33,395 nucleotides of DNA from Candidatus Rokuibacteriota bacterium (GTDB taxonomy: Bacteria > Methylomirabilota > Methylomirabilia > Rokubacteriales > CSP1-6), in assembly GCA_003220495.1 (NCBI GenBank), contig QHSP01000105.1, forward strand, positions 1 to 33,395, read 5' to 3'. The translations under genes and the position numbers were made by a program. A model generated the notes under the pieces. The model saw nothing but the letters and a program-made list of their open reading frames with translations, did no database searches and had not been told where the DNA came from. This document shows positions 5,726 to 14,447 of this stretch, piece by piece. Each line of letters opens with the position of its first letter. The first letter of the stretch is position 1.

Positions 5726-5818
5726 TGGCGGAGGGGCCGGGATTCGAACCCGGGGCACAGGGGTTACCCGTGCACGGCATTTCCAGTGCCGCACCTTCGG
5801 CCGCTCGGTCACCCCTCC
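5726..5818 (-). tRNA. tRNA-Ser (anticodon GGA)
   Basis: The minus strand gives acceptor GGAGGGG/CCCCTCC, D arm, anticodon loop CTGGAAA (anticodon GGA, reads UCC/UCU), a long class-II variable arm typical of tRNA-Ser, T arm GGTTCGAATCC, discriminator G and an encoded CCA (plus 5726-5728). It lies about 130 bases upstream of the SRP RNA on the same strand. Confidence 0.97.
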
Positions 5819-5859: not shown

Positions 5860-5954
5860 TGGCGGAGGGGAGAGGATTTGAACCCCCGAGGGACCTTCTG
5901 GGCCCCTATCCGATTTCGAGTCGGACGCCTTCGACCGGGCTCGGCCACCCCTCC
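5860..5954 (-). tRNA. tRNA-Ser (anticodon CGA)
   Basis: A second class-II serine tRNA on the minus strand, with acceptor GGAGGGG/CCCCTCC, anticodon stem TCCGA/TCGGA around loop CTCGAAA (anticodon CGA, reads UCG), a long variable arm, T-loop TTCAAAT and encoded CCA at plus 5860-5862. A run of six T follows the CCA on the transcribed strand. It shares its acceptor stem sequence with the tRNA-Ser(GGA) next door, 41 bases away. Confidence 0.97.
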
Positions 5955-6193: not shown

Positions 6194-6499
6194 TTACTTC
6201 TCCTTCATCCCGCGCGGGTCCACGGTGTCGGGGAGACAGATGATTGCGATGTACGCCTTCTCCCCGGAGGCAAACGCCATTTCGATTACCGCCCCCGTCC
6301 GCGTGACGACGGTTCCCGGGTCGTTCTGTGGGCGGAACTTGCTGGCAATATCACTCGCAGACGTCACCGCGGCCTGCTTGCACTCGTCCAGGGTCTCGGT
6401 TGCGCCTCCCGGCGTCCACTGGTCAATATCTTTGCTCGGAAACGTCGCATGCGTCCAAGCGACCCACGCGAGCATGAGAACAGCGCAGTTGCGCGTCAC
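6194..6499 (-). CDS. small secreted protein of unknown function
   Basis: The 101-residue product starts at GTG behind a strong GAGGAGG ribosome site (plus 6507-6513). The N-terminus has a short hydrophobic stretch (CAVLMLAWVAW) suggesting export. The mature part holds two Cys in the contexts ETLDECKQAA and IICLPDTVDPRG, compatible with one disulfide in the periplasm. It is not a named family I recognise. It resembles the protein at 12631-12873 in size, signal-like start, the F/E-T-x-x-x-C segment and almost identical ribosome-site context (GCCGAGGAGG). The next gene downstream on this strand is tRNA-Ser, 240 bases away. The coding call is fairly firm; function is unknown. Confidence 0.7.
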   Translation of the reverse strand: MTRNCAVLMLAWVAWTHATFPSKDIDQWTPGGATETLDECKQAAVTSASDIASKFRPQNDPGTVVTRTGAVIEMAFASGEKAYIAIICLPDTVDPRGMKEK

Positions 6500-6790
6500 C
6501 GCTTGCCCTCCTCGGCGCTCGCGCGCTTCACGCTGACTTCTCGCGCGTGCGAGCAGGCCGTCGGCTGCTGGGGCAGTCGCATCCCGAGGACCACCAGGAG
6601 GCCTGGAGGACGCTCAAGGCGGAACTAGACCGACGAAGGCTCCGTCCTGATGCCCGGCGGCGGCGTGGCGCAGCATCCTCGGATCGGGTACGCTCTGGTC
6701 GCCTTCCATCGGGCCCTCAAGGGTTACGCAAACAGGCGTCGGGCTCCTGGCATCTGGCGAAGACTTTTCTGCTAGACCCGGAGAGTTGTC

Positions 6791-7054
6791 ATGCCGAACG
6801 AGCCCATCCTCCGCGAGAAAGCCCGAGCAGCGATCCGGAGTGGGAAGTTGCCTGCGCGACGGTCTGACCGCATGTTCGGTGGACCTGGGAGCGGGCAGCG
6901 CTGCGCTGTCTGTGGCGAACCGCTGCCGCACGAGGAGGTGGAGATCGAGCTGGAGTTCAACCAGCGCAACGGATTGGACCAATATCATCTTCACCACCTA
7001 TGCTATGCCGCGTGGGAGTTCGAGCTTACGAGGGACGGGACAGCTCACAGTTAG
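6791..7054 (+). CDS. small zinc-ribbon-like protein (CxxC...HxxC)
   Basis: The 87-residue protein begins with a basic helix (LREKARAAIRSGKLPARR), then a Gly-rich hinge GGPGSGQ, then a likely metal site: C38xxC41, His66/68/69 and C71 (YHLHHLC), with W75 right after. This layout is shared residue for residue with the product at 9462 (C38, C41, H67, C70, W74), so the two are paralogues. A GGAGAG ribosome site precedes ATG. The family seems to be an uncharacterised small zinc protein; DNA/RNA binding or a regulatory partner role is only a guess. It is first in the run of five such proteins ending at 11102. Confidence 0.8.
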   Translation: MPNEPILREKARAAIRSGKLPARRSDRMFGGPGSGQRCAVCGEPLPHEEVEIELEFNQRNGLDQYHLHHLCYAAWEFELTRDGTAHS

Positions 7055-7194
7055 CTCTCGCGGCTTCCCCAGGCATCCGCGTCGTTGGGGTCGGTCGAGC
7101 GGCGGAGTGGTATCAACCTTCGATCCTGCGCAGCGCTCGATGATCGGCCAGGCTTGCCGATCGATGACACAGGAAGCGAGAGCGGGCCGCTCAG

Positions 7195-7323
7195 TCATGA
7201 CCGTCGCCGTTCGCTGCGGGGTGACTGACGAAGCTCCGACAGCGTCGAGGCGCAGCCGGCGAGAAGGGAGATCGCGACGGCTACTGTTGCGTGCGGAGCG
7301 ATCCTGGAAGGTAGGAGGTGCAT
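7195..7323 (-). CDS. doubtful mini-lipoprotein
   Basis: From ATG 7323 a 42-residue frame reads like a lipoprotein precursor: positive n-region, then AVAISLLAGC with a good lipobox (LAGC) and ASTLSEL after the Cys. However, it has no ribosome site, and its start lies on the antisense of the strong ribosome site of the DUF1059 gene at 7326. It may be a chance frame or a decayed gene; listed because the lipobox is unusually good. Confidence 0.25.
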   Translation of the reverse strand: MHLLPSRIAPHATVAVAISLLAGCASTLSELRQSPRSERRRS

Positions 7324-7325
7324 CA

Positions 7326-7520
7326 ATGCGTGAGTTCCACTGTAAGGACGTTGGGATGCCAGACTGTAGCTTCGTAGCAAAGGGGAAGGACGACGACGAG
7401 GTTATGCGGAAGGCTACTGAGCACGCGAAGCATGATCACCACATGCAGACGATACCGCCTGATCTCGAACGTAAGGCGAGAGGTGCGATCCGCGAGTCAT
7501 CTGGGCAGAGCAAGCGGTAA
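7326..7520 (+). CDS. DUF1059 family small protein
   Basis: The 64-residue product has the DUF1059 pattern: MREFHCKDVGMPDCSFVAKG at the start (two Cys), an acidic helix DDDEVMRKATEHAKHDHH and a C-terminal helix PPDLERKARGAIRES. The size matches the family. The start is set by a perfect AGGAGGTG ribosome site at 7313-7320; the frame is open upstream but those codons have no initiation signal. The biochemical function of DUF1059 is not established. His and Cys richness would allow metal binding, in keeping with the neighbouring CxxC/HxxC proteins. Confidence 0.88.
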   Translation: MREFHCKDVGMPDCSFVAKGKDDDEVMRKATEHAKHDHHMQTIPPDLERKARGAIRESSGQSKR

Positions 7521-7718
7521 GACGACCTGGGCCAGCACGCCCTGTGGCCTCAGGTCCCGGGGCGTTGCTGGCGTCCAGGCGGGTTATGACGCGATACACG
7601 CGCAACACCAGCCCCGGCACGCAAGGTCGCCCGCCCCTCCGCAGGTCTACCCCGGCAGCCACGAGACGGGAAGCGAAGGTGTGCCTGAGCAGCAGAGCGA
7701 GCCCGGCGCTTCTGGTGG

Positions 7719-8168
7719 TCAGGCGACGGCGGCGAGCTGGCCGATAATCGCCACGCACGCTTCCGCCAGCTCCTTGCCCTTCGTCTGCATGTGCTGCTTA
7801 AAGAACTCCTGGTGTACCGAGTGCTCGTGGAAATGATGCGGCGTGAGCACGGCCGAGAGCACCGGGACTTCCGTCTCCAGCGAGGTCTGCACGATCCCGT
7901 GCAGTACGGCTTGGGCAACGAAGTCGTGCCGGTAGATCCCCCCGTTCACGACGAGCCCGCTGGCGCATACGGCGGCGTAGCGGCCGGTCTGGGCCAGCTT
8001 CCTGGCCATCAGCGGGATCTCGAGGCTGCCGGGCACCGAGAAGAACTCGACGTTCTCAGCCCCGTACCCGTGCTTGACCATCTCGGCCATGAACGCCGTC
8101 CGGCAATGATCGGTGATATCGGTGTGCCACGCGGCCTGTACGTAGGCGATCGGCTTGAGCATCATCAT
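7719..8168 (-). CDS. ribH: 6,7-dimethyl-8-ribityllumazine synthase, type II (RibH2-like)
   Basis: Lumazine synthase condenses 5-amino-6-ribitylamino-uracil with 3,4-dihydroxy-2-butanone 4-phosphate, the penultimate step of riboflavin synthesis. The 149-residue protein matches the RibH2 subtype known from Brucella and Mesorhizobium: QAAWHTDITD near 11-20, VPGSLEIPLMARKLAQTGRYAA near 45-66, GGIYRHDFVAQAVLHG near 76-91, and the highly characteristic ETEVPVLSAVLTPHHFHEH near 97-115. Three ATG codons begin the frame; GGGAGGA sits 5 bases before the first. No other riboflavin gene is nearby. RibH2 enzymes are often secondary, low-affinity copies with flavin-storage or stress roles; which applies here is unknown. 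Confidence 0.93.
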   Translation of the reverse strand: MMMLKPIAYVQAAWHTDITDHCRTAFMAEMVKHGYGAENVEFFSVPGSLEIPLMARKLAQTGRYAAVCASGLVVNGGIYRHDFVAQAVLHGIVQTSLETEVPVLSAVLTPHHFHEHSVHQEFFKQHMQTKGKELAEACVAIIGQLAAVA

Positions 8169-8383
8169 GGGTTCCTCCCAGTCTGGCCAGCAGTGTAGCG
8201 CGAGACGACCGGGACCAGCTCAACGCACGACACCGCCCGCTGTCGGTGAGGCGGCCATCAGCGCGCCTCGCACGTGACGGGACGCGGACACCTCGGTTGG
8301 CGTGGCTGGCGGCCGTCGTACTGGTCTGACCGGGAATTGACGAGCGGCCGGGATGTGCTATGACGTTCTCGCTGGCACAAGAG

Positions 8384-8854
8384 ATGACTGAACCGAAGTG
8401 CCCACGATGCACGCAGGTGATTTCGCCCGACGATACCGTTCAGCTTAGGAGCGACCGTGTGGTGCATCTCGACTGCCAAAGACCCCGCGATCTGAGCCGT
8501 GAAGAACGTGTACTGCTCTTCAGGCACTGCAGGGGTCACGCCGTCGCGAAGTGTCCCGCGTGCGCTCAGAGCTTCCGGCAGCATCAACTAGGCGCAGATC
8601 TTCTCGGGCACCGATCGCATCTGTGTCCGCGCTGCCGGACGGACCTCACAGAAAGTCTGCGCGGCCATCTGTACGGCTGCGCGATGCTCCCTGAGGAAGT
8701 GCGGCTGAAAGCGCAGGAGGTGCGTGACGCGGCACGGAGGCTCGCTAAGCACAGCAGCGAATTGCGGGAACGTGCGGACGTCCTGATGCGGGAGGCCGAA
8801 GCCGCAGTCGCTGCGCTCCGCGAGACGATGCAGCGGACGGTTTGGCGCGACTGA
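8384..8854 (+). CDS. tandem-duplicated zinc-finger/coiled-coil protein, copy 1
   Basis: The 156-residue product has an N-terminal metal-binding half: C6xxC9 with H28xxC31 (CPRC...HLDC), then CPAC, CPRC and HLYGC, making at least two zinc sites. The C-terminal half (about 105-150) is a continuous helix with coiled-coil character ending AEAAVAALRETMQRT. It is about 64% identical without gaps (my hand count, about 98 of 153 positions) to the next gene. An ATG 8 codons upstream (8360) is possible; I prefer 8384 because it aligns with the start of copy 2 (ACAAGA-ATG context in both). Family not recognised; likely cytosolic metal-binding protein. It is divergent from ribH. Confidence 0.8.
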   Translation: MTEPKCPRCTQVISPDDTVQLRSDRVVHLDCQRPRDLSREERVLLFRHCRGHAVAKCPACAQSFRQHQLGADLLGHRSHLCPRCRTDLTESLRGHLYGCAMLPEEVRLKAQEVRDAARRLAKHSSELRERADVLMREAEAAVAALRETMQRTVWRD

Positions 8855-8869
8855 CGAGGCGGACAAGAA

Positions 8870-9331
8870 ATGGCTGAACCGAAGTGCCCGCGGTGCATGC
8901 AGTGGATCACGCCTGATGACACGCTCGCCTTCGAAGGGAACCAGGTCTTTCACCTCGACTGCAACAGACCCCGCGATCTGAGCCCCGAAGAGCGCGTCCT
9001 CCTCTCCAAGTACTGCGGGGGGCACGCGGTGGCAGTGTGCCGCGGCTGCGTGCAAGATTTCAGACAATTCGAACTCGGCTCCGACTCGCTGGGCAATCGC
9101 TCTCATTTCTGCCCGCGCTGTCGCGCGGATTTGACCGCGCACCTGCGCGAGCATCTCTACAGCTGCGTGATCGTTCCCAGCCAGATTCGCGTAAGGGCAC
9201 GTGCGGCGCGTGAGGCCGCGAAAAGACTCGTCAAGAAGAGCAGCCAGCTGCGCGATCTGGCGGACGTGCTGATGCGCGAGGCCGAAGCGTCCGTAGCCGC
9301 GCTACGCGAGACGATGCGGCGGACCGCCTGA
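8870..9331 (+). CDS. tandem-duplicated zinc-finger/coiled-coil protein, copy 2
   Basis: This 153-residue paralogue lies 15 bases after copy 1. All Cys/His ligands are kept: C6xxC9, H28xxC31 (CPRC...HLDC), CRGC, CPRC, and HLYSC. The helical tail from about 105 is also kept, ending EASVAALRETMRRTA. The most conserved blocks are RPRDLS-EERVLL, GHAVA and LADVLMREAE. Conservation of every metal ligand after divergence to about 64% identity suggests both copies are functional, perhaps as a heterodimer through the tails. The molecular role is unknown. Confidence 0.8.
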   Translation: MAEPKCPRCMQWITPDDTLAFEGNQVFHLDCNRPRDLSPEERVLLSKYCGGHAVAVCRGCVQDFRQFELGSDSLGNRSHFCPRCRADLTAHLREHLYSCVIVPSQIRVRARAAREAAKRLVKKSSQLRDLADVLMREAEASVAALRETMRRTA

Positions 9332-9461
9332 CTCAGCTCACCCGAGAAAGACCGGGACAGGCCTCGCCACTGGGTTGACAACCCCACGGTGGACGCGGAT
9401 GATGTCGCCTCGATGGTCTAAGACGGTCGCGTAGCCTGTCCCAGGATTTTAGGAGGTCGAC

Positions 9462-9722
9462 TTGCTGGATCTGGACGTTGTTCGCTTCGTCGTCCGGCGC
9501 AGACTCGAGGGCGGTCTCCTGCCGCATGGCGGGATGATGAGGGTGCAGGACACTCCTGGCGGCGGACAAATGTGCGACGCCTGCGGGGCAAACATCACGT
9601 CCGATCAGATCGCGATGGTGGGCGCTACCTCAGAGGGCGGCAGGAGGACCCGTCATTTCCACGCCCTCTGCTTCCGGATCTGGGATCACGAGAGGCACCT
9701 ACTCTACGGGCGATCGGCATAA
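9462..9722 (+). CDS. small zinc-ribbon-like protein, paralogue of 6791-7054
   Basis: The 86-residue protein starts at TTG, justified by a perfect AGGAGGT (9451-9457) four bases upstream. It has an N-terminal helix (VVRFVVRRRLEGGLLP), the hinge TPGGGQ, C38xxC41, H65/H67, C70 and W74 (RHFHALCFRIWDHER). The ligand positions coincide with those of the 87-residue product at 6791, so they are ancient paralogues flanking the tandem pair. It stands 130 bases after copy 2 of that pair. Function unknown; the basic N-terminal helix plus zinc knuckle could suit nucleic acid or protein docking. Confidence 0.78.
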   Translation: MLDLDVVRFVVRRRLEGGLLPHGGMMRVQDTPGGGQMCDACGANITSDQIAMVGATSEGGRRTRHFHALCFRIWDHERHLLYGRSA

Positions 9723-9744
9723 GGCCGCGTCAACCGGGCGGCGA

Positions 9745-10914
9745 TCAGTTCAGGATCTCGTCGTAGACCTGGGCGAGCCGTTCGGCGCACTGCCGAATGT
9801 CGAAGTGTTCCCGCATCCGCCGGCGGACTAGCGCCCCCTCGGTCACCAGCGCCTCAGGATCCTTCCAGAATCGCTGGATTCGGTCGGCGATCGCGCAGGC
9901 GTCACGCTCCGGCACCAGCATTGGACTGAGGTCACCGAGGAGGAACGGAATGTCGGAGTGCTCGGTCGCGATGACCGGCATCCCGGTGGCCATCATCTGT
10001 TGAAGCACGAAGGGAGTCCCTTCGGCGTCGCCGTCTGCCGCCGTCACGCTCGGCGCCACGAAGACGTGCGCGCGCATGGCCCGCTCGATGAGCTCGGTGA
10101 ACGGAAGGAACGCGTGACGGCTCACGACGTCGCCGATGCCGAGCTGGCCGATGAGCCGTGAGACCCCTTCCTCGGTTTCCCGATCCCTCGCTTTTCCCAA
10201 TGGATTGCCCACGAGTTGCAGCTCCAGTCGAACTCCCGATCTTCGGGCGCGGGCCGCCCCCTCGACCACGTATTCGATGCCCTTCTTCTCGCGGAACGTT
10301 CCGGCAAACAAGAGCCGAAGCGGCTCGCCGGTCCGCAACTTGCGCGGCGCGGACGGGAGCTCCTCGACGTCGACGCCCAAAGGATGGATCCGGATCTTCG
10401 GCCGGGGACACCCGAGCTTCTCGAGTGTCGCGGCCATCGCCGGACCCAACGCCAGGACCTTCGTCACGCTTCGAAACAGGGCCGCATAGGGCTCTCGCCA
10501 CTCGTCCCGCCGCCCGAGTTGATAGACATCGGCGCCGTAGAAGCTCGCGACCCACGGCACGCCCAGCGCCTGCGCCAGCTGGATATCTCCCGCCGCCAAG
10601 TCGCCGAAGTGCGAGTGCAGGACCCGCGGCGCGCTCCGCTTGATCCGGATTCGATCCGGCGGATAGAGGCGCGTTCCGCCGAGCCGGCTCCAGATCCGAC
10701 TGCCGATGCTTCGCGGGTAGATGGCCCGTGCGTCGAGTTCCGGGAATTCGCCCCGGTTCATCAGGGTGTCGCACAGGACCGTCGGGGTGTAACGCGGGAG
10801 GAAGCGCAGGTGGTCGTAGAGCCAGTTCATGGTGCGGCCGACGAATTCGGGGCATCGCTGCAGCGTGTTCACCGGGCTGGCCAGCGGGCGCTGCCCGCGT
10901 TCCGGCCGCCTCAC
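9745..10914 (-). CDS. glycosyltransferase family 4-like protein
   Basis: A GT-B fold glycosyltransferase that probably builds a surface polysaccharide. The N-terminal acceptor half has SHFGDLAAGD and VPWVASFYGADVY. The C-terminal nucleotide-sugar half has LLFAGTFREKKGIEYVVEG and APSVTAADGDAEGTPFVLQ-QMMATGMPVIATEHSDIP. The second Glu of the usual EX7E motif is Gln here (EGTPFVLQQ), a change I recall from some related subfamilies. I place the start at GTG 10914, which overlaps the stop of the small zinc protein upstream (GTGA) and has AGGTGAG before it. A longer frame to 11091 would run through that gene. It works naturally with the flippase at 11193-12569. Confidence 0.88.
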   Translation of the reverse strand: MRRPERGQRPLASPVNTLQRCPEFVGRTMNWLYDHLRFLPRYTPTVLCDTLMNRGEFPELDARAIYPRSIGSRIWSRLGGTRLYPPDRIRIKRSAPRVLHSHFGDLAAGDIQLAQALGVPWVASFYGADVYQLGRRDEWREPYAALFRSVTKVLALGPAMAATLEKLGCPRPKIRIHPLGVDVEELPSAPRKLRTGEPLRLLFAGTFREKKGIEYVVEGAARARRSGVRLELQLVGNPLGKARDRETEEGVSRLIGQLGIGDVVSRHAFLPFTELIERAMRAHVFVAPSVTAADGDAEGTPFVLQQMMATGMPVIATEHSDIPFLLGDLSPMLVPERDACAIADRIQRFWKDPEALVTEGALVRRRMREHFDIRQCAERLAQVYDEILN

Positions 10915-11102
10915 GACTTGCTCACCTGCGAGGCCACACGGTCGAGGGCGCTTGCACGGGCCTTTTTCCGTTCCGCTCTGGCCCTCAGGGCGTCGAGGTG
11001 TTCGGCGCAGATGCCATGCGAGACGGCCCCGTTCCCGTCTTCCTTCCCGCCGAGCAGCACGACTCTTCCAGCCTGCTCGCACCACGCGCACACGACCTTC
11101 AT
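10911..11102 (-). CDS. mini-protein with CAWC...SHGIC zinc motif
   Basis: The 63-residue product starts at ATG 11102 behind GGAGGT (5-base spacing). Likely metal ligands are C5xxC8 (VCAWC), H29, C32 and H35 (SHGICAEH), followed by a basic helix (LRARAERKKARASALDRVASQVSKS). The CAWC-x-n-SHGIC pattern also occurs as a small module attached to PAS-type sensory proteins in some Deltaproteobacteria (recollection), usually with a final Cys instead of His35. Here it stands alone between flippase and glycosyltransferase and is stop-start coupled to the latter, so it may tune that pathway. Function unknown. Confidence 0.78.
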   Translation of the reverse strand: MKVVCAWCEQAGRVVLLGGKEDGNGAVSHGICAEHLDALRARAERKKARASALDRVASQVSKS

Positions 11103-11192: not shown

Positions 11193-12569
11193 CTAGCCTG
11201 GAGGGCTTGCCGGGGCTGCCCGGCCGCGAATCATCCGGCGCCACAGGGCTCGGTAGGCGGAGAGATCCGCGGCGCGCGGGATGAGCACGGTCCACGGCAA
11301 TCGCGTAACACGGAGGTAATACCAGATCAATAGGCTCGACATAATTGTGTACGACACCGAGGACGCGAGTGCCGCTCCCGAGATTCCCATCCGGGGCACG
11401 AGCAGGAGATTTCCGATGATGTTGGCGGCCACCGCCGCGCCGGAGGCCCACACCGTGTACCGGGGTTTCTCTCGAGCGAGGAGCTCGGCCACCAGGACCT
11501 TCCCGATGCTCAGGGTGAAGATACCGGGCAGGAGCCAGCGCAGCGGTGGCACGGCCCCGGCGAAAGACGATGAAAAGAGAATCGTCACGACCGGGTCCGC
11601 CACGACGAACAGGACGACGCACGCCGCTCCGGTCCACATCGCCACGTGCCGGCAGATCGCGGCGGAGACCGCGGCATCGACGTCGCGACGATTCGTCAAG
11701 TGTGGCAGTAAGACATTCGCCACCGATCCCGGAATGATCCAGATCCGTTCGACCAGGCCGACGGCCATGGTATAGAGACCGAGCTGCTCAACCGGGAGCA
11801 ACGCCGCAACGATGAATTCGTCGACGCGGTAGTTCAGATAGGCCGCGACGGTGGCGGCGTGCACGGCCAGCGCGAAGACCGCGACGCGTCGCCACAGGGT
11901 CGAATCCCATGTCGGCATGCACCACGCTTTGACCGAACCAAGCACGATGCCCAGGACGACCGCCGTGCCGATGCATGCGACCGCATCGGTCCAGGCCGCT
12001 CCGGTGACGCCGAGGTCGAGCCCCCAGACGAAGACGACCAGGCCGAGGAGCAAGATCACTCTCGTTCCGAGCTCGACCACGTTCACGAGCTGGATTCGAT
12101 TCATTCCGCGGATGATGGCGCCCCAGTACTCGACCACGAGACGTGCGGGGATCGTCGCGAGTAGGAGCAGCACGAGCGCCGGCGGGGCCGTTGTCAGCGC
12201 CTCGAACCCCGGCGCGCCGGCGAGGACATACGCCATCCCGACCGCCGCGACGGTTCCGCCAATCCCTAGCGCGACCGCCACCGATTGCCATACGAGAACC
12301 CCTCGGCTGCGAGGCGCCAGGCCGGCATAGACCGCGTTCGCCTGCTCGAAACCCAGGAGCCCGACGCTCGTGGCGAGGCTCGGCAAGAGGAGGATCAGCG
12401 CGAACACACCGCGTCCCTCGGGACCCAGCATGCGGGCCAGTAGCACGGACGACAGCAAGGCGATGAGCATGACCGCCACGCGCGTCCCGAAGGTCGAGCC
12501 GATATTCCGAATGAGCTGGCTGGTGCCGTGCGCCGTGTCCCGCGGTTCGTCGCGATCGACTGCGGTCAT
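11193..12569 (-). CDS. oligosaccharide flippase family protein (Wzx/MATE-like)
   Basis: The 458-residue protein is strongly hydrophobic, with roughly 12-14 membrane segments. It has the family's N-terminal entry (SQLIRNIGSTFGTRVAVMLIAL, then VLLARMLGPEGRGVFALILLLP, about 20-65), a conserved YLNYRVDEFIVAALLPVEQLGLYTMA region near the middle, and the C-terminal LPGIFTLSIGKVLVAELLA. Such proteins flip undecaprenyl-linked oligosaccharides across the inner membrane for O-antigen, exopolysaccharide or S-layer glycan assembly. The start ATG lacks a clear ribosome site. It is followed 90 bases later by the mini zinc protein and the glycosyltransferase, so they form a small surface-glycan operon. No polymerase or other transferase is nearby. 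Confidence 0.9.
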   Translation of the reverse strand: MTAVDRDEPRDTAHGTSQLIRNIGSTFGTRVAVMLIALLSSVLLARMLGPEGRGVFALILLLPSLATSVGLLGFEQANAVYAGLAPRSRGVLVWQSVAVALGIGGTVAAVGMAYVLAGAPGFEALTTAPPALVLLLLATIPARLVVEYWGAIIRGMNRIQLVNVVELGTRVILLLGLVVFVWGLDLGVTGAAWTDAVACIGTAVVLGIVLGSVKAWCMPTWDSTLWRRVAVFALAVHAATVAAYLNYRVDEFIVAALLPVEQLGLYTMAVGLVERIWIIPGSVANVLLPHLTNRRDVDAAVSAAICRHVAMWTGAACVVLFVVADPVVTILFSSSFAGAVPPLRWLLPGIFTLSIGKVLVAELLAREKPRYTVWASGAAVAANIIGNLLLVPRMGISGAALASSVSYTIMSSLLIWYYLRVTRLPWTVLIPRAADLSAYRALWRRMIRGRAAPASPPG

Positions 12570-13517: not shown

Positions 13518-14447
13518 ATGCGTATCGTCGTCCACGGGCAACAGGCATTCGGCAAGAGCGTGCTCGATGCTCTGCTGGAACGCGGAGAGAACGTCGTCGG
13601 CGTCTACAGTGCTCCCGACCCCGCGCAGGGGGGGCGGGTCGATCCGTTGAAGGAGGCCGCGCTCGCCCGTGGCCTCCCCGTCCACCAGCCGCGGTCCTTT
13701 CGCAACAAGCCGGAGGTGTGGGAGGAATTCGCGCGACTCAAGGCCGATCTGTGCGTGATGGCCTACGTCACGCTCATCGTCCCCGAAGCGGTGCTGAATC
13801 AGCCCGCCCGCGGCACCATCCAGTACCATCCTTCTCTGCTCCCTCGCCACCGCGGTCCCAGCTCGATCAACTGGCCGATCATCATGGGCGAGACGCGGAC
13901 GGGCCTGAGCATCTTCTGGCCCGATCAGGGTCTGGATACGGGGCCGATCCTGCTGCAGAAGGAAGTCGAGATCCGGGACAGCGACACCCTGGGCAGCCTC
14001 TACTTCGATCGGCTCTATCCGATGGGAGTCGCGGCGCTGCTCGAGGCCGTCGATCTGGTGCGCGCCGGCACCGCGCCGAAGATCGTGCAGGACGAATCCC
14101 AGGCGACCTACGAAGGCTGGTGCAAGAAGGAACACGTCCAGATCGACTGGCAGAAGCCCATCCAGACCGTCTGGAATCTCATTCGCGGCGCCGACCCGCA
14201 ACCGGGCGCGTGGACGATGTACGAGGGCACGACTCTGCTCCTTCACGACGCCAAGAAGCTCGTGGGTGCGACACAAGGCCGGCCCGGGGAAGTCGTCGCC
14301 GTCGATGAGACGGGCCTGACGATCGCCGCGAGCGACGGCCACGTCCAGGTCACTCGCGTGCGGCCGGAGGGTGGCCAGAAGGTCGCCGCCGCGGCATTCG
14401 CCAAGACCGCGGGGCTTCGCCCCGGAGCGCGGCTGGGGGCGTCGTGA
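13518..14447 (+). CDS. 10-formyl-THF hydrolase/formyltransferase-domain protein (ALDH1L1 N-domain-like)
   Basis: The 309-residue protein belongs to the Fmt/PurN/FDH formyltransferase superfamily. It resembles the N-terminal hydrolase domain of 10-formyltetrahydrofolate dehydrogenase more than true Met-tRNA formyltransferase: the active-site stretch reads YHPSLLPRHRGPSSINW with His104, and FWPDQGLDTGPILLQKE gives Asp140. FDH has the same pattern (His106, Asp142) with a hydrophobic residue where Fmt has Asn; here that position is Gln102. Domain 2 keeps ATYEGWCKKE and IRGADPQPGAWT. ATG 13518 follows GGGGGG; the longer upstream frame is non-coding. It is stop-start coupled (GTGA) to the dehydratase. 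Products could be formate plus THF, or transfer of formyl to an unknown acceptor. Confidence 0.88.
   Translation: MRIVVHGQQAFGKSVLDALLERGENVVGVYSAPDPAQGGRVDPLKEAALARGLPVHQPRSFRNKPEVWEEFARLKADLCVMAYVTLIVPEAVLNQPARGTIQYHPSLLPRHRGPSSINWPIIMGETRTGLSIFWPDQGLDTGPILLQKEVEIRDSDTLGSLYFDRLYPMGVAALLEAVDLVRAGTAPKIVQDESQATYEGWCKKEHVQIDWQKPIQTVWNLIRGADPQPGAWTMYEGTTLLLHDAKKLVGATQGRPGEVVAVDETGLTIAASDGHVQVTRVRPEGGQKVAAAAFAKTAGLRPGARLGAS

Follow-up and report, generated by a model that had tools for sequence, protein, structure and literature searches.

Five small proteins with a CxxC...HxxC motif (A to E), found in the window (the whole 33,395-nucleotide stretch of Candidatus Rokuibacteriota DNA that was analysed), are best explained, in our tentative view, as mobile, lineage-expanded zinc adaptors at a tRNA-Ser hotspot. 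By sequence comparison, the five fall into three independent families, AD (A and D), BC (B and C) and E, and AD and BC may act together as a nucleic-acid-binding adaptor. AD and BC are absent from the family libraries we searched, and several genomes of one genus contain about ten copies of each, or more. Selection acts on both, they tend to occur side by side and form fusions with each other, and we did not find them in the literature searched. The features of the locus are listed below by coordinates and strand. They include the DUF1059 and RibH2 (lumazine synthase) genes that an earlier, sequence-only reading had placed among the five; the two tRNA-Ser genes at the start of the island, the integrase remnant and eight extra invariant Cys/His of BC had been overlooked there.

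5726..5818, minus strand: tRNA-Ser(GGA), left flank (ARAGORN)
5860..5954, minus strand: tRNA-Ser(CGA), conserved left boundary (ARAGORN), in 9 of 9 genus members
6791..7054, plus strand: A, AD family, 87 aa, predicted single zinc site, CAVC-x26-HHLC (CAVC38-41, HHLC68-71)
7326..7520, plus strand: DUF1059 protein (PF06348, E 4.9e-20)
7635..7690, minus strand: tyrosine-recombinase remnant, LRHTFASRLVAAGVDLR, matches the PF00589 remnant in genome G050 at 17/17 aa
7719..8168, minus strand: lumazine synthase family protein (RibH-like), cargo (PF00885, E 2.4e-36)
8384..8854, plus strand: B, BC family, 156 aa, CPRC-x18-HLDC, 12 conserved Cys/His, C-terminal helix
8870..9331, plus strand: C, 153 aa, CPRC-x18-HLDC, tandem copy of B, folded as the BC representative
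9462..9722, plus strand: D, AD family, 86 aa, TTG start, CDAC-x25-HALC
9745..10872, minus strand: GT4-family glycosyltransferase, cargo (PF00534, E 2.1e-17)
10911..11102, minus strand: E, 63 aa, CAWC-x20-HGIC (CAWC...SHGIC)
11193..12569, minus strand: polysaccharide flippase-like protein, cargo (PF13440, E 8.8e-12)
13518..14447, plus strand: formyltransferase-family gene, conserved right boundary (PF00551, PF02911)

All five ORFs are present with the motifs described earlier, and they encode real proteins rather than arising by chance (E being the least certain), as follows from the excess of motifs over shuffling and from constrained codon substitution. Among the 292 ORFs of the window (stop-to-stop, at least 60 aa), six contain CxxC-x15-27-HxxC: A to E and one separate ORF that apparently matches by chance. 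Shuffling the residues of the window ORFs gave 0.14 motif matches on average (maximum 2), as compared to the five ORFs A to E that carry CxxC-x18-26-HxxC. According to dN/dS (Nei-Gojobori, window genes against their relatives), the AD and BC families together range from 0.12 to 0.40, showing purifying selection. A has an orthologue in G050 that is 87% identical (dN/dS 0.20), D gives 0.29–0.36 against its relatives, and B and C give 0.12–0.25 (0.12 for B against C). For E and its nearest paralogue (L042, 44% identity) the value is 0.43.

The five proteins had been taken for one expanded, uncharacterised family; they are expanded and uncharacterised, as the copy numbers below and the library searches show, but the single family gives way to three. 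AD and BC have no detectable sequence relation (hhalign probability 9.6%) and our searches aligned E with neither of them, so one common family was ruled out. The tandem copies B and C are indeed paralogues (64% identical), and A and D, proposed as paralogues flanking them, do form one family, though at just 22–24% identity. Searches of Pfam, NCBIfam, PHROG and PADLOC gave nothing above cut-off or convincing for AD, BC or E. In paralogues of E, the CAWC/HGIC-type finger often precedes another domain, which contains a DRR motif and which we named DRR. Our literature search, which had most subscription journals outside its range, returned neither a paper joining Rokubacteria to such fingers nor PARP-type zinc fingers in bacteria under that name.

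AD is a domain of about 85 aa with a single site. In 69 AD sequences, the four CxxC/HxxC ligands are 97–100% conserved, a conserved Trp directly follows the last ligand Cys, and the spacing between CxxC and HxxC is mostly 24–25 (range 21–37). A was modelled by AlphaFold2 (using 53 AD sequences) at pLDDT 90.9, in the order helix, strand, CxxC turn, hairpin, and HxxC opening the last helix; on this confident model the predicted fold of AD is a treble clef, in line with the metal site that had been suggested. Each of the 26 best PDB matches that Foldseek found for A is a finger of PARP1 (Zn1/Zn2) or of DNA ligase III (best E 0.007, TM mostly 0.40–0.52, probability 0.82–1.00), and the fold search also brought up viral proteins with a zf-PARP or PARP-type annotation. 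PARP1 also ranked first when the AD profile was searched against PDB sequences. In a profile comparison with PARP and LIM reference sequences, LIM scores as well as PARP and the two are not separated; the sequence profile was therefore ruled out as proof of AD-PARP homology.

Like zf-PARP (PF00645, which covers PARP1 Zn1/Zn2 and DNA ligase III), AD has CxxC...HxxC ligands and a predicted treble-clef shape, and AD-AD tandems found in other genera add to the likeness. The two differ in ligand spacing (28 in PARP1, mostly 24–25 in AD), and AD is small and stands alone, without an attached PARP or ligase. PF00645 has no match above 39.3 bits (the Pfam cut-off) in the whole genome, and zf-PARP is absent from the families listed for the 53 AD members. 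At the positions of PARP1 R18 and R34, which we take to be DNA-contact residues, AD has G and mostly E/A/M. AD has a basic N-terminal helix and a finger half whose net charge is acidic (-2.2). We did not assign AD to zf-PARP because it scores below the Pfam cut-off, the fold E-values are modest, LIM does equally well, and R18/R34 are not conserved. The PARP1 finger is a DNA-break sensor in human, and AD could be a bacterial, stand-alone, multi-copy form of the PARP/ligase-III break-sensing finger, making up with BC a lineage-specific, island-borne system that binds DNA ends or nicks and recruits various small effectors by fusion; we regard this as quite unlikely. If AD does bind DNA breaks like a PARP finger, it would be a free-standing bacterial module of such a sensor (bacterial PARPs are described as consisting mostly of WGR and catalytic domains, PMC4245714).

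BC proteins are about 155 aa long, carry 12 conserved Cys/His and finish with a long helix at the C terminus. The ligands of its finger 1 (CxxC-x18-HxxC) are 94–100% conserved in 36 sequences, and eight further Cys/His, in the arrangement CxxH-x4-CxxC-x20-CxxC-x10-HxxxC, are invariant in the same set. Twelve potential ligands would be enough for three metal ions, so that BC has three potential metal sites, and the earlier assignment of one zinc to each protein does not fit this family. The model of C, the BC representative, has a pLDDT of 83.8 and places a helix at residues 104 to 152, in which one heptad register is hydrophobic at 0.71 as compared to 0.45 overall; in this model, the C-terminal helix is probably a coiled coil. 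Comparison of BC with solved structures gave no clear PDB match. Finger 1 resembles the first half of LIM (PF00412), with alignments to half LIM domains. A LIM module has two contiguous fingers, whereas the contiguous second finger is missing in BC (its next Cys/His pair comes 18 residues on, C31 to C49) and AD has one finger; both families score below the Pfam cut-off for PF00412.

Homologues with conserved ligands do exist in other genomes, as had been expected. A scan of named genomes with BC gave three hits, all in Ca. Rokuibacteriota MAGs. Out of 95 genomes of the phylum, 25 contain BC-related sequences and 29 contain AD, all within one taxonomic family, and near-full-length BC is restricted to the genus of the window. 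With at most 40 or 56 candidates scored per genome, this genome has at least 12 AD and at least 13 BC hits, and the per-genome maximum in the genus is at least 17 BC and at least 20 AD hits (several of them fragments); AD and BC have thus multiplied in one genus of Rokubacteria, where they number about ten to twenty per genome. An AD gene lies within 1 kb of 11 of the 38 BC clusters, as compared to 0.23 expected for random placement (a Poisson estimate, which takes no account of ancestry that the species share). Single ORFs that fuse BC with AD occur in two species, namely this genome (L031:5191-5985) and G050 (L108:10513-11256). In other genera, two CxxC-HxxC fingers can precede AD, and a DRR-type domain shares an open frame with AD (with a putative start codon). 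One AD protein, in L035, carries a GIY-YIG-like domain as well (PF01541, E 5e-4, 20.8 bits against a cut-off of 22.6). Frameshifted or truncated AD/BC copies occur, and other copies adjoin unrelated genes. Integrases are found within 10 kb of 12 of the 81 AD/BC clusters (3.9 expected), and this genome has five integrase hits.

The island consists of variable cargo between the conserved tRNA-Ser(CGA) and formyltransferase genes. The tRNA-Ser pair region is present in all nine genus members, and the formyltransferase gene adjoins the tRNA-Ser site in 8 of 8 genomes examined (the order is altered in G049, which is rearranged). Across seven species, the interval between the two boundaries spans 0.8–11.8 kb: 7.6 kb here, 11.8 kb in G050, 3.9 kb in G053, 2.7 kb in G054, and 0.96, 0.92 and 0.78 kb in G051, G055 and G048, respectively. 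Remnants of the integrase are found at the site in three species (the window, G050 and G053): the PF00589 copy in G050 lies beside the same tRNA-Ser, and the G053 copy has 94.6% DNA identity to the one in the window. The interval holds only AD and a DRR-type gene in G051, and a BC gene without glycan genes in G053. Several island genes have their nearest relatives at other sites in related genomes; relatives of the lumazine synthase gene, for example, lie elsewhere in the G053 and G051 genomes. A pair like C-D stays together in G050. Direct repeats of the tRNA end were not found at the flanks (only chance matches of 11–12 nt), and we found no cassette-like repeats within the island other than the B-C duplication. 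The tRNA border, integrase remnant, species-specific cargo and conserved flanks are as in tRNA-linked genomic islands; the island differs from them in lacking direct repeats, in the degenerate integrase copies at the site, and in the position of its cargo, 5' of the tRNA gene. Relatives of BC (A4, P0003) and of P0004 were absent from viral contigs, those of P0004 from phages, and those of P0001 and P0003 from plasmids; the absences from viral contigs and phages led us to rule out a viral origin. Whatever AD binds, the tRNA-Ser hotspot lends itself well to studying how tiny genes spread in Rokubacteria.

AD and BC probably bind nucleic acids. AD, as a one-zinc treble clef of PARP-type shape with a basic N-terminal helix, would make the contact, and BC, with its CCHC finger, its CxxH-x4-CxxC-x20-CxxC-x10-HxxxC module and its long helix, would add a zinc-stabilised surface and might self-associate through the helix. 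Most likely the two would work jointly as a small adaptor, with fusions tethering partners such as the GIY-YIG-like nuclease domain, while E would be a separate short finger. The families, ligand conservation, expansion, purifying selection, linkage, fusions and variable locus are computed results; metal binding, nucleic-acid binding, contact of AD with BC and any regulatory or DNA-processing role are inferred. The predicted PARP-type fold and the GIY-YIG partner place the nucleic-acid reading slightly ahead of a somewhat doubtful one, in which AD and BC are zinc-stabilised protein-protein adaptors, used in the manner of LIM domains without contacting nucleic acid, which would tether or regulate enzymes and whose copies diversify for different partners. 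The half-LIM alignment of BC finger 1, an AD profile that fits LIM as well as PARP, and the many fusions with varied domains are consistent with protein adaptors, as are the acidic finger half of AD and its missing PARP1 DNA-contact residues, the two features that also keep our preference for nucleic-acid binding tentative. Foldseek, however, puts AD closer to PARP-type fingers, and a nuclease-like partner suggests nucleic acid.

The variable hotspot, the single genes at other places in relatives, the frameshifted or truncated copies and the excess of nearby integrases would all fit selfish or near-neutral cargo of integrative elements, which duplication and transfer would maintain while the host gains little. 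We consider this unlikely, since the dN/dS values and invariant ligands argue for sustained selection on the proteins and integrases are few in this genome. Small genes at such a hotspot could also be part of an anti-phage or counter-defence system, and A weakly matches the type IV Csf1 profile (PADLOC, E 0.0015); however, PADLOC gave no other match, the island has no effector-like toxin or nuclease, and the phage (P0004) and plasmid (P0001, P0003) searches came back empty, making such a role very unlikely. It is highly improbable that A to E regulate the adjacent glycan genes, as the sequence-only reading had supposed from the neighbouring glycosyltransferase and flippase genes: AD or BC occupies the same site in G051 and G053 without glycan genes, and other copies sit beside unrelated genes.

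A conceptual comparator for AD and BC is a set of haloarchaeal zinc-finger micro-proteins (PMC6562870, PMC11241148), which are likewise tiny, marked by Cys motifs, expanded across the genome and without known partners. Some of the haloarchaeal small proteins that carry such motifs contained no zinc, and AlphaFold2 did not distinguish them from the others (PMC11241148), a caution for the predicted metal binding here. AD and BC belong to other families: the haloarchaeal proteins have two C(P)XCG motifs in fewer than 70 aa (PMC11241148), whereas AD (86–87 aa) and BC (153–156 aa) combine CxxC with HxxC.

Besides tRNA-Ser, a second tRNA-linked site of the AD genes (encoding the ~85-aa single-site CxxC...HxxC family, putative zinc fingers) is tRNA-Arg(CCT), which adjoins them in three species, at L032, L109 and L141. 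Truncated ABC_sub_bind (PF04392) genes repeatedly lie (16 of 17 cluster members; e.g. at L033, L034 and L120, among others) within 1.5 kb of AD genes or of BC genes, whose ~155-aa products have 12 conserved Cys/His.

Two small protein families, both without a match in Pfam, accompany these genes: DRR-motif proteins (VDRRxGERR, ~60–80 aa), which are frequent neighbours of AD or BC genes, and a ~67-aa family (MQLQVGDRFADETGEWEV...), which is over-represented close to them. Examples (locus-internal positions) are:

L034:7293-7469, DRR-motif protein
L118:8253-8486, DRR-motif protein
L139:9715-9948, DRR-motif protein
L112:4573-5891, ~67-aa family
L116:4774-4977, ~67-aa family

Contig C105 of the window's genome (G000; L031) is rich in both AD and BC copies, and joined frames were found there and at L037:

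L031:4267-5985, three tandem BC copies, the final one fused to AD
L037:5198-6472, minus strand, AD continuing in one stop-free frame into an OmpA-like lipoprotein

The latter may be a true fusion or else two neighbouring genes.

The window also encodes a small, apparently secreted protein:

6194-6499, minus strand, C-terminal end CLPDTVDPRG

Short DNA matches (about 80–100% identical) to the 3' end of its gene (about 6195-6240), and likewise to a stretch around its start (6491-6554), are found at many loci of the genus.
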